Assembly: GCF_000182745.2 (NCBI RefSeq)
Contig: NC_016027.1
Coordinates: 2,138,001-2,202,000, forward strand
From: Komagataeibacter medellinensis NBRC 3288
GTDB lineage: Bacteria > Pseudomonadota > Alphaproteobacteria > Acetobacterales > Acetobacteraceae
Direction of reading: 5' to 3'
DNA length: 64,000 nucleotides
Made by a program: the position numbers and the translations under genes. Within the stretch, counting starts at the first letter, position 1. Every line of letters starts with the position of its first letter. The notes below the pieces were generated by a model. It had not been told where the DNA came from and did no database searches. It was given only the letters and a program-made list of their open reading frames with translations. Positions 4,254 through 21,561 of the stretch are shown here, one piece after another.

Positions 4254-5333
4254 GTGTTACCTTCTGCTGCCGATCTGTTACGCTGGTATGACCGGCACCG
4301 TCGCATCCTGCCATGGCGCGCCCTGCCGGGCCAGAGCGCAGATGCCTATCGGGTCTGGCTGAGCGAAATCATGCTCCAGCAGACCACGGTTACGGCGGTC
4401 ATGCCGTATTTCGAGCGTTTCCTTGCCGCTTTCCCCGATGTGGGCGCACTGGCCCGCGCGCCGCAGGACCGGGTCATGGCGCTGTGGGCGGGTCTTGGCT
4501 ACTACGCCCGCGCGCGCAACCTGCATGCCTGCGCGCAGGTTGTGGCGGCCAGCGGCGGCCGGTTTCCCGATACGGTGGAAGGGTTGCTGGAACTGCCGGG
4601 AATCGGTGCCTATACCGCTGCCGCCATTGCCGCCATCGCCTTTGGTCGCCCCGTCGTGCCGGTAGACGGGAATGTGGAGCGCGTGACCACACGCCTCTTT
4701 GCCCTGACTGATCCGCTGCCTGCTGCGCGCAAGGCCATAGCCCGCCGGGCCATGACGCTGAACGGGGATGCGCTTGCCCGCGCCCGCCCGTCTGATTTTG
4801 CTCAGGCACTGTTTGACCTGGGTGCCGGCATCTGCACGCCGCGCACGCCTGCCTGCGTGCTGTGTCCATGGCGGGAAACATGTGCTGCGAACCGGCAGGG
4901 AATCGCGGCCACCTTGCCGCGGCGTGCGGCAAAGCCCGTACGCCCGGTGCGCTACGGGGTGCATTTCTGCATGGTGGACAGTGCCGGCGGTCTGCTGCTG
5001 GTCCGTCGCCCCGAAAAGGGTCTGCTGGGCGGCATGATGGGCTTGCCGGGGCCGGTATGGCGTGACGCCCCATGGTCGGACACGGAAGCCATGGCCCATG
5101 CGCCCACGGCTTCTCGCCTGCGCCCGCAATGGCATAAGGTAGGGCAGGTCAAGCATGTCTTTACCCATTTCACCCTGCTGGTGGATGTCTATGCCGCGTG
5201 TGTGCAGAGCTTTCCCAATAGCCTGGTCGCAGCGGAGGGGATGGTCCACCGCACGGGGGATGATGAAGTGGCGCTGCCCTCGCTCATGCGCAAATGTATC
5301 AGTCTGGCGCAGTCCGCGCATGTTTTTGATTGA
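4254..5333 (+). CDS. mutY: A/G-specific adenine glycosylase
   Basis: Removes adenine mispaired with 8-oxoguanine (base-excision repair). It shows the catalytic Glu region SEIMLQQTTVTAVMPYFERF, the helix-hairpin-helix ELPGIGAYTAAAIAAIAFG with catalytic Asp in VPVDGNVERV, and the [4Fe-4S] loop C-x6-C-x2-C-x5-C (CTPRTPACVLCPWRETC). A C-terminal NUDIX-like domain reading 8-oxoG follows (GLLGGMMGLPG, then VKHVFTHFTL). The GTG at 4254 is chosen because it places WYDRHRRILPW at the usual distance from the N-terminus; the frame is open much further upstream but there overlaps dciA. Length is 359 residues, normal. Confidence 0.95.
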   Translation: MLPSAADLLRWYDRHRRILPWRALPGQSADAYRVWLSEIMLQQTTVTAVMPYFERFLAAFPDVGALARAPQDRVMALWAGLGYYARARNLHACAQVVAASGGRFPDTVEGLLELPGIGAYTAAAIAAIAFGRPVVPVDGNVERVTTRLFALTDPLPAARKAIARRAMTLNGDALARARPSDFAQALFDLGAGICTPRTPACVLCPWRETCAANRQGIAATLPRRAAKPVRPVRYGVHFCMVDSAGGLLLVRRPEKGLLGGMMGLPGPVWRDAPWSDTEAMAHAPTASRLRPQWHKVGQVKHVFTHFTLLVDVYAACVQSFPNSLVAAEGMVHRTGDDEVALPSLMRKCISLAQSAHVFD

Positions 5334-9803: not shown

Positions 9804-10745
9804 TTATAGTGACTGGTGCTTGGTCCAGCCTTCCATCGTGTTGTCGGTCGCGCAGCGCAGGTTCATCTCGATTTCCAGACCCGCGTTCAGTTCCGCGCCA
9901 AGCAGTACCACATAGGCCGAGACATAGAACCACATCATGATGGCGATGAACGCACCCAGCGGCCCGTATGTGGCGCTGTAGCTCGCGATATGGCTGACAT
10001 AATAGGAAAACCCTGAAGACGAGAGTAGCCACAGCAGCGTGGCCCCCACCGAGCCGGGCAGGATGCAGCGCCAGTAGGTATGCGGTCGGTTCGGCCCGAA
10101 GCGGTACAGCACCGAACAGAGCGACAGCACGAACAGCAGCATGAGGAAGGGGGCGCCCATGTGGATCAGCAGTTCAACCGAACCCGGCGGCGGTGCCAGT
10201 GACAGGTGCTCGGGCAGGTAGTCCAGCAGGAACGGCAGCGCCACCATGAGCGCAAGCGTGAGGATACCACCGCAGATCGAACAGAACGTGAGCGCTATGC
10301 TCATGCCCTGGAAGCGCACGAAGCTGCGTGTCTCGGGTGTGTTGTAGGCCACGTTCATCGCCATGATCAGCGAACGCGTGGCCGCCGAGGCCGACCACGT
10401 GGCGATCATGGTGGAAATGATCAGGTTGAACGTCAGGGAGGAATGCGATTCGGCCACCAGCAGGTGGATCCTGTCGCCAATGACATCATAGGCGGAAGGG
10501 GGCAGCAGGTTACGCAGCACCACAAGCTGCGGCTCCACCGTCTGTAAATCAAACAGCAGCCCATAAAGGGAGATGAGCGTGCTCATGGCCGGAAACAATG
10601 AAAGGGTGGCGTAGAACGCGCACCCCGCCGCAGCCAGCGTGATCTGGTCCGATACGATATTGCGGGCGACCTGCCGCAGCACCTTCTTGACCTGCGCCCA
10701 TGAGAAATGGAGCAGGTGGGGGGTCGGTGAGGGGGTTTCCGTCAT
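9804..10745 (-). CDS. YihY/BrkB-family inner-membrane protein
   Basis: A polytopic protein of about 313 residues with the YihY/virulence-factor-BrkB layout: first helix DQITLAAAGCAFYATLSLFP, the LISLYGLLFD segment, SLTFNLIISTMIATWSASAATRSLIMAMN, two central helices, and the C-terminal GPLGAFIAIMMWFYVSAYVV LLGAELNA end diagnostic for the family. The family was once mislabelled RNase BN; its true role is unknown and may be transport. ATG 10743-10745 is preferred over an upstream TTG at 10775; neither has a clear ribosome binding site. A short soluble N-terminus and C-terminus flank the membrane core. Confidence 0.88.
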   Translation of the reverse strand: MTETPSPTPHLLHFSWAQVKKVLRQVARNIVSDQITLAAAGCAFYATLSLFPAMSTLISLYGLLFDLQTVEPQLVVLRNLLPPSAYDVIGDRIHLLVAESHSSLTFNLIISTMIATWSASAATRSLIMAMNVAYNTPETRSFVRFQGMSIALTFCSICGGILTLALMVALPFLLDYLPEHLSLAPPPGSVELLIHMGAPFLMLLFVLSLCSVLYRFGPNRPHTYWRCILPGSVGATLLWLLSSSGFSYYVSHIASYSATYGPLGAFIAIMMWFYVSAYVVLLGAELNAGLEIEMNLRCATDNTMEGWTKHQSL

Positions 10746-18500: not shown

Positions 18501-19445
18501 TCAGTCCAGCGGATTGCCCTGTCCTGCTGGGGTTGCGGCCGGGTCACGCGAGAGGCGCGCGCGCTGTTCCTCGCTGGAGGCCAGCATGTCGCTGTTGAAC
18601 CCATCATGCAGGACCTGCGCCCAGCCTGCCATCCATGTATTCGTGCGCTTGACGAAATCGGCTGCCGCCGGCTGCTGGCCCAGCGTGTCCTTGTTCCAGA
18701 ACTCGGGCGTGCGCAGCATCTTGGTGCTATCGGTATTGACGGGGTTGATGAAGATGGTCACCGTCTCGACATTGACGTTGTGGTCACCGGCAGGGGTGCT
18801 GTAGCTCCAGCCCGATTTCAGGAAGACCGGTGGCAGGATGAACCCTTCTTCCTTCAGCCTGTTGGCGATGATGGCCGTGCGGTTGATGGATGCGGGATAG
18901 ACCGCTGCCGTAAACCAGCATTCCATTGCGGGTGGATGGGCTGACAGCACGTGGGACATGAAGTTACGGTCATCGTGGCAGCTGGAGTCGATGGAAGCGA
19001 TTGCGGTCTCGGGAACAGGCTGGGTGCTGCCTTCCGCGCCAATCAGTCCGGTCACGACATGGCCTTGTACACGCACCAGCACATTTTCCAGCACTTCGCC
19101 ATGCGGGCCGTTGATGATGTTCATGACCGGATGCCATACCCCCGCCGGGAGCGGCAGGATGCGCCCGGCAAAGGGAATTGCCTTGGTCAGCCGGTCGGTA
19201 ATCGGCATCATGGTGATCACGCCATCGCCATCATTATTGCCACCGGTGCTGTCCACCCCTTCCGCCGGAGCATTATGCATGCCCAGGTGGTTATGGATGG
19301 AGGCAGAAATCGCCGCCAATTTGGGTAGGAGACGCGTCAGGTAGGCTGGCGGGAAAATGAACGTCAGCAACCCGAAAGGCAGGATGAGGTAAAGGCAGAG
19401 CCGCCATAGGGGCGCGCGCTGCCACAGGCGTGAGAAAGCAGACAT
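18501..19445 (-). CDS. unrecognised membrane-anchored periplasmic protein, 314 aa (AAA+ cassette, third gene)
   Basis: I recognise no family. A short basic N-terminus precedes one membrane helix (residues about 14-36, WRLCLYLILPFGLLTFIFPP), so some 275 residues should be periplasmic. The soluble part has a Gly/Asp-rich loop (VDSTGGNNDGDG), a segment LPAGVWHPVMNIINGPHGEV, two cysteines (C156, C176) that could form a disulfide, and a Trp-rich C-terminal third (EFWNKDTLGQQP, NTWMAGWAQVLHDGFNSDM). It lies 105 bp downstream of the AAA+ gene on the same strand, so it is probably co-transcribed. The end of the protein is Arg/Pro-rich and looks disordered. Confidence 0.6.
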   Translation of the reverse strand: MSAFSRLWQRAPLWRLCLYLILPFGLLTFIFPPAYLTRLLPKLAAISASIHNHLGMHNAPAEGVDSTGGNNDGDGVITMMPITDRLTKAIPFAGRILPLPAGVWHPVMNIINGPHGEVLENVLVRVQGHVVTGLIGAEGSTQPVPETAIASIDSSCHDDRNFMSHVLSAHPPAMECWFTAAVYPASINRTAIIANRLKEEGFILPPVFLKSGWSYSTPAGDHNVNVETVTIFINPVNTDSTKMLRTPEFWNKDTLGQQPAAADFVKRTNTWMAGWAQVLHDGFNSDMLASSEEQRARLSRDPAATPAGQGNPLD

Positions 19446-19550
19446 TCAGTCGCTCAAGCCGCGCACGGCCACGCCTTTCCGCAAACGGGGGGGCAGACTG
19501 GTAGGGGTGGCAGTGCAACGTGACACGGAGCGGATCATGGCAGCCATGGA

Positions 19551-20825
19551 TCAGGAACTGATCCGCGCGCGCTGGGCTTCTTTGTCCTGGTCCGCGATCT
19601 CGGCCACGATTCCATCCTCGTTCTGCACCACGCGCACCAGCTTCGCACCCTGCTGGCGTGCGGTGATCAGGGAGTCGCTGATCATGTCCTCAATGGAGCG
19701 CGCCAGGTCGCGCGCACTGGCGGCAGGACCCATGCGGTCCTGACGACGCATGACCTCGAACAGCAGGGCGGGGTCGATACCGCCAGTCTCCACCTTCAGG
19801 CCATAGCTGTCGATCATCGCCTCGATCTCGAGTGCTGAAACGCGGGCAATGTCCAGTCCCTCGAGCGGGCGGAACACGAAGATGCGGTCCAGCCGGTTCA
19901 GGACTTCCGGCGCGAATCCCGCCTGGCGCAGTGCCTCGACCGACTCGGCGCGCATCTTGTCCGGTTCGTCCGCCAGCCGGTCCGCAATCTCGGACAGCGC
20001 ATCGGTGGCGATGTTGGAGGTCAGGATAAAAATGCAGCGTACGGTCGAGATCTGCTGTCCAGTCGAGGCCTCGGTCACATGGCCATCATTCCATGCCGTC
20101 AGGAATTTCTTGAAGACATCGGGGTGAGCCTTCTCGATTTCGTCTAATAGCACCACCGCATCGGGTTTTTCCTTCAGGCCGCCGGTCAGCTTGCCGTAGG
20201 TGTCGGAGCCGACATAGCCCTTGGGCGAGCCGAAAAGCTGGGTCGCGGCGTGGGGCGAACTCATCTGCGTCATGTCGAAGTTGAGCAGCGGGCGGTCAAG
20301 CTGGCGGGCGAGTTGCTTGGCCAGATAGGTCTTGCCCGTGCCCGGCGGCCCGGCAAGCAGGAAAATCCCCACCGGCTTGCCACGGACCTGCAGCGCCAGG
20401 CGGCGGCGCAACTGGGTCGCCACGTCCTCGCATACCTGGTCCTGCCCGATCACGCGGGCGCGCAGGCTTGCGGCCAGTTCTTCCGCGTCGATCACGGTTT
20501 CTTTCTGTTCACGCGCCAGCATTTCCTCCAGCGCGCTGCGATTGGTCAGCCTGGCGAGTACGTCCATTATCCATCCCCGTCTGCGTCGTATCCCCTTGCG
20601 GGCCAGTTTTTCGGCCCGGTTCTCGAACCACAGCCCGGTCAGCGCCAGCAGGGCGCTGCCCGCTGCCACGACCGGATAGGCCGGGGCACACCATTCCATG
20701 AAATGCCGTACGCTGGCGAGCGAAAGATGCAACGCCATCGCCGCCTGAAAGCTGCCCAACACCAGGAATATGACCATGATGAAGGGTACAAGCCGTTCCA
20801 TCAGCCCTGAATAGAGCGGTTTCAT
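19551..20825 (-). CDS. membrane-anchored single-ring ClpB/ClpA-type AAA+ ATPase
   Basis: 424 residues. Two membrane helices (about 12-34 and 48-66) are followed by a basic stretch (KGIRRRRGW), a charged linker and one Clp D2-type AAA+ module. Visible: VIGQDQVCEDVATQLRRRL, Walker A GPPGTGKT (159-166), pore loop GYVG (203-206), Walker B VVLLDEIEKAHPDV (224-237), sensor-1 Asn in LTSN (271), arginine finger in LNRLDRIFVF (R311) and sensor-2 Arg in SARDLAR (R372). N-terminal substrate domain, D1 ring and an obvious ClpP-docking IGF-type loop are absent. It should thread or remodel proteins at the inner membrane without ClpP. The start overlaps the stop of the preceding gene (ATGA), tying it to a membrane partner. 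No named family fits. Confidence 0.8.
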   Translation of the reverse strand: MKPLYSGLMERLVPFIMVIFLVLGSFQAAMALHLSLASVRHFMEWCAPAYPVVAAGSALLALTGLWFENRAEKLARKGIRRRRGWIMDVLARLTNRSALEEMLAREQKETVIDAEELAASLRARVIGQDQVCEDVATQLRRRLALQVRGKPVGIFLLAGPPGTGKTYLAKQLARQLDRPLLNFDMTQMSSPHAATQLFGSPKGYVGSDTYGKLTGGLKEKPDAVVLLDEIEKAHPDVFKKFLTAWNDGHVTEASTGQQISTVRCIFILTSNIATDALSEIADRLADEPDKMRAESVEALRQAGFAPEVLNRLDRIFVFRPLEGLDIARVSALEIEAMIDSYGLKVETGGIDPALLFEVMRRQDRMGPAASARDLARSIEDMISDSLITARQQGAKLVRVVQNEDGIVAEIADQDKEAQRARISS

Positions 20826-21460
20826 TGCACGACCACCCCGATTACGATTTCGGTATCCCGCGTCAGGGTTGGCAGGGGCGTCGGCCCCGGTACGAACACC
20901 GCGCCCGCGTGGATGCCGGTGGGCCCCGGATCGCCTGCGGCGGTAATGGAGACGTTGCCGGCAATGCGTATGGGCAGGATCACGCTTTTGGGCTGCGCGC
21001 CCAGATGCACGGTCTGCACCAGCCCCAGCGATTGCACGTTCACAACCGCGTTGCCGCCCGTCATGTCATACATCGGCATGTCCGCCAGCACGATGTCCCG
21101 CCGTTTCAGCGCGGCCAGGATCTCGGCCTGCTGCTGGATGGAATAGGAAGTCTGGCGCAGCATGTCCGCCGCATGCTCGGGCGAGATCATGGGCATCTGA
21201 CCCATCATGTCCGGGCGATTCTGTACCGGGGCGTTGAGCGTGAGGTGGCTGCCATCATCGGCACCCCCACTCCCCGCTTCCGCTGCGGTTGGGGGTGTCT
21301 GGCTGCCGCTGCCGCCTTCGCGTGCCGTCAGCAGTCCGCCACTGCCCAGGCCGCCCGCCGCCACCACGGCCGCGATCAGCCCCACCACGACCAGCTTACG
21401 GCTGGCGAGGCGTTCACTGCGTTCCCGTGCGGGTTCAGGCGGCGATTGCAAGGGCGTCAT
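20822..21460 (-). CDS. unrecognised single-pass membrane protein (AAA+ cassette, first gene)
   Basis: About 212 residues; not a family I recognise. A charged Pro/Glu/Arg-rich cytoplasmic N-terminus (PPEPARERSERLASRK) leads to one membrane helix (LVVVGLIAAVVAAGGLGSGG) and a Gly/Ser-rich linker. The rest is periplasmic: an Met/Pro/Gln-rich helical stretch (DMMGQMPMISPEHAADMLRQ, SYSIQQQAEILAALKRRD), then a beta-rich domain (NAVVNVQSLGLVQTVHLG, VILPIRIAGNVSITAAG, DTEIVIGVVV). ATG 21458-21460 is taken as start; the frame opens at TTG 21496, and neither has a clear ribosome binding site. It is divergent from rimP and overlaps the AAA+ gene by four bases. Confidence 0.6.
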   Translation of the reverse strand: MTPLQSPPEPARERSERLASRKLVVVGLIAAVVAAGGLGSGGLLTAREGGSGSQTPPTAAEAGSGGADDGSHLTLNAPVQNRPDMMGQMPMISPEHAADMLRQTSYSIQQQAEILAALKRRDIVLADMPMYDMTGGNAVVNVQSLGLVQTVHLGAQPKSVILPIRIAGNVSITAAGDPGPTGIHAGAVFVPGPTPLPTLTRDTEIVIGVVVQ

Positions 21461-21561
21461 CAATTCATAATGCGGCTCAGGCGGGTCATATGGCAAGACG
21501 TTAAGAGACAGGAAATGTAACCCTGCTCCATATATATATAGTTCTTGCGGACAGGCTGGTC

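Follow-up and report, generated by a model that had tools for sequence, protein, structure and literature searches.

The 64,000-nucleotide window analysed here, taken from Komagataeibacter medellinensis NBRC 3288 (contig NC_016027.1, positions 2,138,001 to 2,202,000), contains a unit of three minus-strand genes, which encode a membrane AAA+ ATPase and two partners with periplasmic domains, named here Peri1 and Peri2 (Table 1). The new observation concerns the relatives of this unit: in six species the motor of the ATPase is degenerate and Peri1 is gone, yet the ATPase frame and Peri2 persist.

A preliminary description of the locus had proposed a cassette in which a two-helix ATPase is flanked by two single-pass proteins. 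Re-reading of the sequence places the three frames at the same coordinates, with Peri1 and the ATPase coupled by an ATGA overlap, and hydropathy (window 19, cut-off 1.5) agrees with this topology. The ATPase helices lie at residues 12-30 and 49-67, the second barely exceeding the cut-off with a peak of 1.54. The folds of Peri1 and Peri2 were each predicted singly. From its topology, the unit may join the cytoplasm to the periplasm. For Peri1, an ATG start at 21460 is preferred over a TTG at 21496, because aligned relatives start close by. Peri2 begins 105 bases past the ATPase stop. The promoter-like match upstream of Peri1 is at chance level, with one match in 21461..21561 versus 0.8 expected in shuffles. 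The neighbours of the unit in the window are rimP, nusA, lysR and acnA.

Table 1. Coordinates and main features of the three-gene unit in the window
Feature	Position	Strand	Description
Peri1	20822..21460	-	212 aa; N-terminus in the cytosol, single membrane helix at 23-41, then a low-confidence linker and a beta-sandwich at the C-terminus (about 83-212)
ATPase	19551..20825	-	424 aa; pair of membrane helices near the N-terminus, followed by a single AAA+ module of the Clp D2 type
Peri2	18501..19445	-	314 aa; LWxRAxxWR segment in the cytosol, single membrane helix at 16-34, alpha/beta domain in the periplasm (about 76-286) with two conserved cysteines
ATGA overlap, Peri1 stop (TGA) / ATPase start (ATG)	20822..20825	-	
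Intergenic stretch, Peri1 to divergent rimP	21461..21561	.	weak sigma-70-like match 21467-21496, just inside or beside

A Clp-type ATPase with one D2-type module

The Pfam scan assigns to the ATPase a single AAA_2 domain (PF07724, E 4.4e-38, residues 150-314), and its top sequence matches among solved structures are ClpE (E 7.3e-45) and ClpB, whose D2 halves align to it through GPPGTGKT, GYVG, VVLLDE, TSN and NRLD. As had been described, the protein has one D2-type module, with the N-domain and D1 absent. It shares this module, together with the GYVG loop, Walker A and B, sensor 1 and the arginine finger, with the Clp/HSP100 proteins (ClpB, ClpA, ClpE, ClpC, ClpK-like and ClpV), but differs from them in having one ring and membrane helices. 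The NCBIfam models of ClpB, ClpA and ClpV are matched in their D2 half alone, far under the full-length cut-offs: the ClpB match covers positions 533-848 of 853 (179.4 bits versus a cut-off of 1232.1), so that the ATPase lacks the ClpB architecture of two rings, N-domain and middle domain in one chain, and the ClpV/TssH match reaches 144.6 bits versus 884.95, the neighbouring genes not being those of a type VI locus.

A phylogeny of the ATPase, one of the checks suggested at the outset, sets it in a clade of its own, apart from these proteins. In a tree of 41 AAA modules, which left out five of the six degenerate ATPases, gave long-branch warnings and had its labels checked for ten Clp rows only, a branch with 99/99 support separates the membrane ATPases and a Microvirga plasmid protein from the ClpA, ClpB, ClpK-like, ClpV and Lon rows. 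This last relative, the AAA ATPase WP_203447015.1 of plasmid pMVF16-3 from Microvirga sp. VF16 (NZ_CP069357.1, L166:11752-12990), is 51.3% identical to the ATPase over residues 86-403 and also carries hydrophobic N-terminal segments, although its pore loop is GYSG.

The ATPase had also been said to lack an obvious ClpP-docking loop. In the alignment with ClpE, the VGF stretch that in ClpE follows sensor 1 and precedes the arginine finger, and which we take to be the docking loop characteristic of ClpA, ClpC, ClpE and ClpX, has no counterpart in the ATPase, and no protease domain appears among the best 25 of 42 Pfam rows.

Other Clp proteins were met in these genomes. Three Acetobacteraceae (G170, G192 and G055, loci L153-L155) possess a ClpK-like protein of 962-1066 residues, preceded in L154 and L155 by a frame that presumably resembles FtsH. 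In several draft Komagataeibacter genomes, the clpB-type match is no more than about 1 kb away from the edge of a contig, which would suit a neighbouring repeat (e.g., G014:C15:273, G013:C20:569, G009:C23:496 and G001:C30:488), its clpB identity being confirmed for G014.

Partner proteins and co-conservation

Neither Peri1 nor Peri2 matches a Pfam or PHROGs family, and their NCBIfam and PADLOC rows are at chance level only. Profiles were built from 56 of the 81 available Peri2 proteins (A1) and from 57 of the 81 Peri1 proteins (A2), these being drawn from the 80 named loci described below plus the window; scanning of the same 56 and 57 relatives for families gave scattered matches only, with E 0.013 or worse. 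The earlier statement that no named system fits therefore holds within the searches made (Pfam, NCBIfam, PHROGs, PADLOC and the literature), profile searches of both partners having matched no described family. Among the matches listed in the literature searches, no published account of the three-gene unit was found, and the main text of PMC12041372 mentions neither Clp, rimP, nusA nor an ATPase.

Both partners carry well-conserved features. The last residue of Peri1 is Q in 80/80 named loci, and the cytosolic LWxRAxxWR segment is present in 98 of 100 Peri2 proteins, including those of all six lineages with a degenerate motor. A weak match points to a possible PsbP/DcrB/LpqN/Eag-like fold for the periplasmic domain of Peri2. 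Peri2-like periplasmic domains were also seen outside the unit (L162:9276-10268; L163:7894-8856; G188:C16:105512 and 92731; G125:C36:271310; G165:C328:2553; G045:C1:958218); the L163 protein ends in a SHOCT domain.

The named loci are the best 80 of 128 relatives found in a scan of named genomes, and belong to acetic acid bacteria such as Komagataeibacter, Novacetimonas, Gluconacetobacter, Acetobacter, Gluconobacter, Asaia and Neokomagataea. In every one of them Peri2 follows the ATPase on the same strand (median gap 42.5 bases, range 3-169) and Peri1 precedes it (80/80 by profile, 77/80 by plain tblastn), a co-conservation that bears out the proposal of a single three-gene unit. rimP and nusA adjoin it in 79/80, the exception ending at a contig edge. 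The trio is also together in seven further, divergent loci (L141, L142, L144 and L146-L149) in which rimP and nusA are absent from the 8.9-19 kb fetched; one of these, L142, has an ATPase whose frame is broken. In L141 (G234), a frame at 4597-5088, downstream of the unit, is, in our judgement, reminiscent of toxin-activating acyltransferases.

In a 249-genome sample of the family, 68 genomes give an ATPase match with an E of at most 1e-45, and 60 have the short ATPase once the 8 with long Clp proteins (957-1066 residues) are excluded. Peri2 is found in 60/60 of them and a Peri1 match in 52/60, a match in G057 (E 5e-4) being counted as chance; the 64 genomes with a Peri2 match include G045 and G188, with stand-alone relatives only, and G083, in which the unit is cut at a contig end. 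The eight short-ATPase genomes without a genome-wide Peri1 match are five with a degenerate motor plus G197, G234 and G239. A cleaner locus-level profile, obtained from A2, recovers Peri1 in G197 and G234, and the G239 locus ends at a contig edge. Matches given by an earlier profile in L139 and L140 were discarded, because that profile included frames antisense to rimP.

Searches were also made beyond the family. Profile A1 gives five matches in 385 genomes of the class, two of them in Acetobacteraceae genomes with the cassette and three weak or partial. P0004 at strict cut-offs, with which weaker relatives would be missed, is found in 2 of the 385 class genomes and 1 of 299 phylum genomes, all Acetobacteraceae.

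Motor loss in small-genome relatives

Among 143 aligned ATPases (from 141 loci, the window and the Microvirga protein, with near-duplicates from two collections included), motor motifs are intact in every one except five. The five belong to G094 and G168 (genus g77), G149 (g46), and G190 and G232 (g117), and a sixth degenerate species, G103 (g86), was reached via its Peri2, so that six species in four genera are involved. In all six, Walker A ends in GKK, GKN or GKG instead of GKT and the LLDE of Walker B is changed (LLNE in G149); four have lost the pore loop and two carry TPTG in its place, and the finger arginine is lost in three (G094, G168 and G103) and retained in the others. The loss is focused on the pore, Walker B and sensor part, the linker and P-loop parts remaining more alike.

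All six species nevertheless retain a full-length ATPase frame of roughly 400-470 residues and a Peri2 with its cytosolic motif. Peri1, by contrast, has no genome-wide match in any of them, a search of the locus itself up to E 10 finds none either, and the gap from rimP to the ATPase is 272-334 bases, as opposed to 729-1032 in ten loci with an intact motor. Their genomes measure 1.9-2.4 Mb. Close relatives with an intact motor exist in two of the genera, namely G063 (g46), where Peri1 is present, and G134 (g117).

On a tree of NusA and RimP, the degenerate state needs three changes. One shared origin for all six species is rejected (p-AU 3.4e-57), while one origin is not rejected for the five without G149 (p 0.07) nor for G094, G168 and G103 (p 0.30). 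The motor has thus been lost at least twice and probably three times, the third loss being favoured because G134 shares its genus with G190 and G232, and because the ATPase tree groups L139 with L152, the locus of G134 (support 96/82).

Selection could be measured in one degenerate pair, G190 versus G232 (L139/L140), whose ATPases show a synonymous divergence (dS) of 0.289, a nonsynonymous divergence (dN) of 0.016 and a dN/dS of 0.057, with a dN/dS of 0.07 for Peri2. Measurable intact pairs give ATPase values of 0.021-0.049, except for G080 versus G159 (0.246), which includes broken frames.

Proposed function and alternatives

The preliminary description read the unit as an energy-driven remodelling machine. 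This agrees with the intact motor in the window, but energy-driven remodelling cannot be the whole function, because six species with a degenerate motor keep the ATPase frame and Peri2. It has been considered instead, with about an even chance of being right, that the unit is a membrane-anchored, single-ring dislocase of the Clp/HSP100 type with two partners and a second, ATP-independent role. According to this proposal, which is drawn from sequence comparison, six ATPase subunits would form a cytosolic ring held at the inner membrane by their helix hairpins, with Peri2 docking through its LWxRAxxWR segment. The ring would pull an inner-membrane or membrane-associated client, leading to its dislocation or disassembly, with no peptidase being fed. 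This powered action would require Peri1, a link drawn from its absence in every species with a degenerate motor. Together, ATPase body and Peri2 would have a further role without ATP, as a scaffold or in client holding, since purifying selection keeps both after motor loss. A further reading, which we hold tentatively and at slightly under even chance, is that of a two-function machine, in which a Peri1-dependent Clp motor is set on a scaffold of ATPase body and Peri2 with its own ATP-independent function, the motor and Peri1 being lost together in symbiont-sized genomes and the scaffold kept as a conserved pseudo-ATPase.

Several observations weigh against this proposal. Purifying selection on a degenerate ATPase comes from a single species pair, the other degenerate pairs being saturated. 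In G134 (L152, about 9838-10335) the motor is intact and Peri1 is recognisable, but its frame is broken; in G159 (L184) neither the N-terminus of the ATPase nor Peri2 keeps to a single frame, with Peri1, RimP and NusA open; and in G197 (L142, 9183-10267) the ATPase matches in two frames and lacks its N-terminal part, both partner frames being open. These broken frames may be sequencing errors or decay. Neither Peri1 nor Peri2 was found beside the Microvirga plasmid ATPase, so an ATPase of this clade can exist without partners. Finally, the suggestion that the ATPase works without a protease partner comes from one missing loop.

With respect to known systems, HflK and HflC are single-pass, periplasm-facing partners of FtsH, which is described as a membrane-anchored cytosolic AAA+ protein, and this layout resembles that of the unit. 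However, the ATPase of the unit is of the Clp type, it has no M41 peptidase domain among the Pfam rows considered and matches the FtsH model with only 17.4 bits (residues 151-176), and no SPFH/Band 7 domain is present in Peri1, Peri2 or the members of A1 and A2 (Pfam). Msp1/ATAD1 comes from a different AAA branch than Clp. It is described as a single ring, anchored in the membrane, which pulls membrane proteins out (PMC7018516). Its likeness to the unit lies in the action proposed for the latter, and Msp1 is without bitopic partner genes. Torsin with LAP1/LULL1 is a Clp-related single ring with membrane partners (cf. PMC7175109), but lies on the opposite side of the membrane, and its match to ATPase residues 108-187 is weak (E 2.9e-5, 24.6 bits versus a cut-off of 27). 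Broadly, the unit could operate in the manner of FtsH and its partners or of Msp1, being a member of neither by the features tested.

The same FtsH-type layout of membrane anchor and single-pass periplasmic partners has led to an alternative, which we judge unlikely, in which the unit would serve disaggregase-like or protease-linked quality control, the anchored ring unfolding inner-membrane clients for a peptidase such as ClpP or FtsH and Peri1 and Peri2 acting as periplasmic sensors, as in FtsH with HflK/HflC. The ClpE, ClpB and ClpC modules, the nearest to the D2 module of the ATPase, fit this idea, but the unmatched VGF stretch, the Pfam rows considered, with no protease domain among them, and the unit without any peptidase gene seen do not, and the degenerate lineages drop the motor yet retain the unit. 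An improbable alternative of another kind is that the unit helps to assemble or hold one particular complex of the inner membrane or periplasm, with the PsbP/DcrB-like Peri2 holding the client and the ATPase releasing or resetting it.

Less probable still, and in our opinion very unlikely, is that the degenerate ATPases are decaying remnants of a unit on its way out in small genomes, with no ATP-independent role. The small size of the six genomes, the related small genomes of the sample without the unit (e.g., G074, G155 and G099, without Peri2) and the broken frames of G159 and G134 would be expected in such a process. The full-length frames in 6/6 species, the low dN/dS of the ATPase in the measurable pair, the retention of Peri2 with its motif in 6/6 and the concentration of change in the pore, Walker B and sensor part argue against it.

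Three other candidates were rejected: anti-phage defence (in PADLOC, none for Peri2, only JAB at E 0.039 for Peri1, and only generic AAA rows for the ATPase, the best being PDC-M37B at E 8.6e-25); an origin in phages or plasmids (plasmids gave no Peri2 match, no relative in the viral_contigs scan, and phage matches to the ATPase under 60% identity, none spanning 80% of the query); and a secretion or conjugation machine, the partners having matched no described family in general scans, with no search aimed at Dot/Icm genes.

If the two-function machine is correct, the lineages with and without the motor would constitute a natural separation-of-function series, and those with a dead motor allow a clear test of the work that the complex does with ATP and without it. 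A ring of the Clp/HSP100 type, anchored in the inner membrane of bacteria and served by two partners of its own, would add another kind of membrane AAA+ complex, in this case one that occurs in industrially used bacteria.
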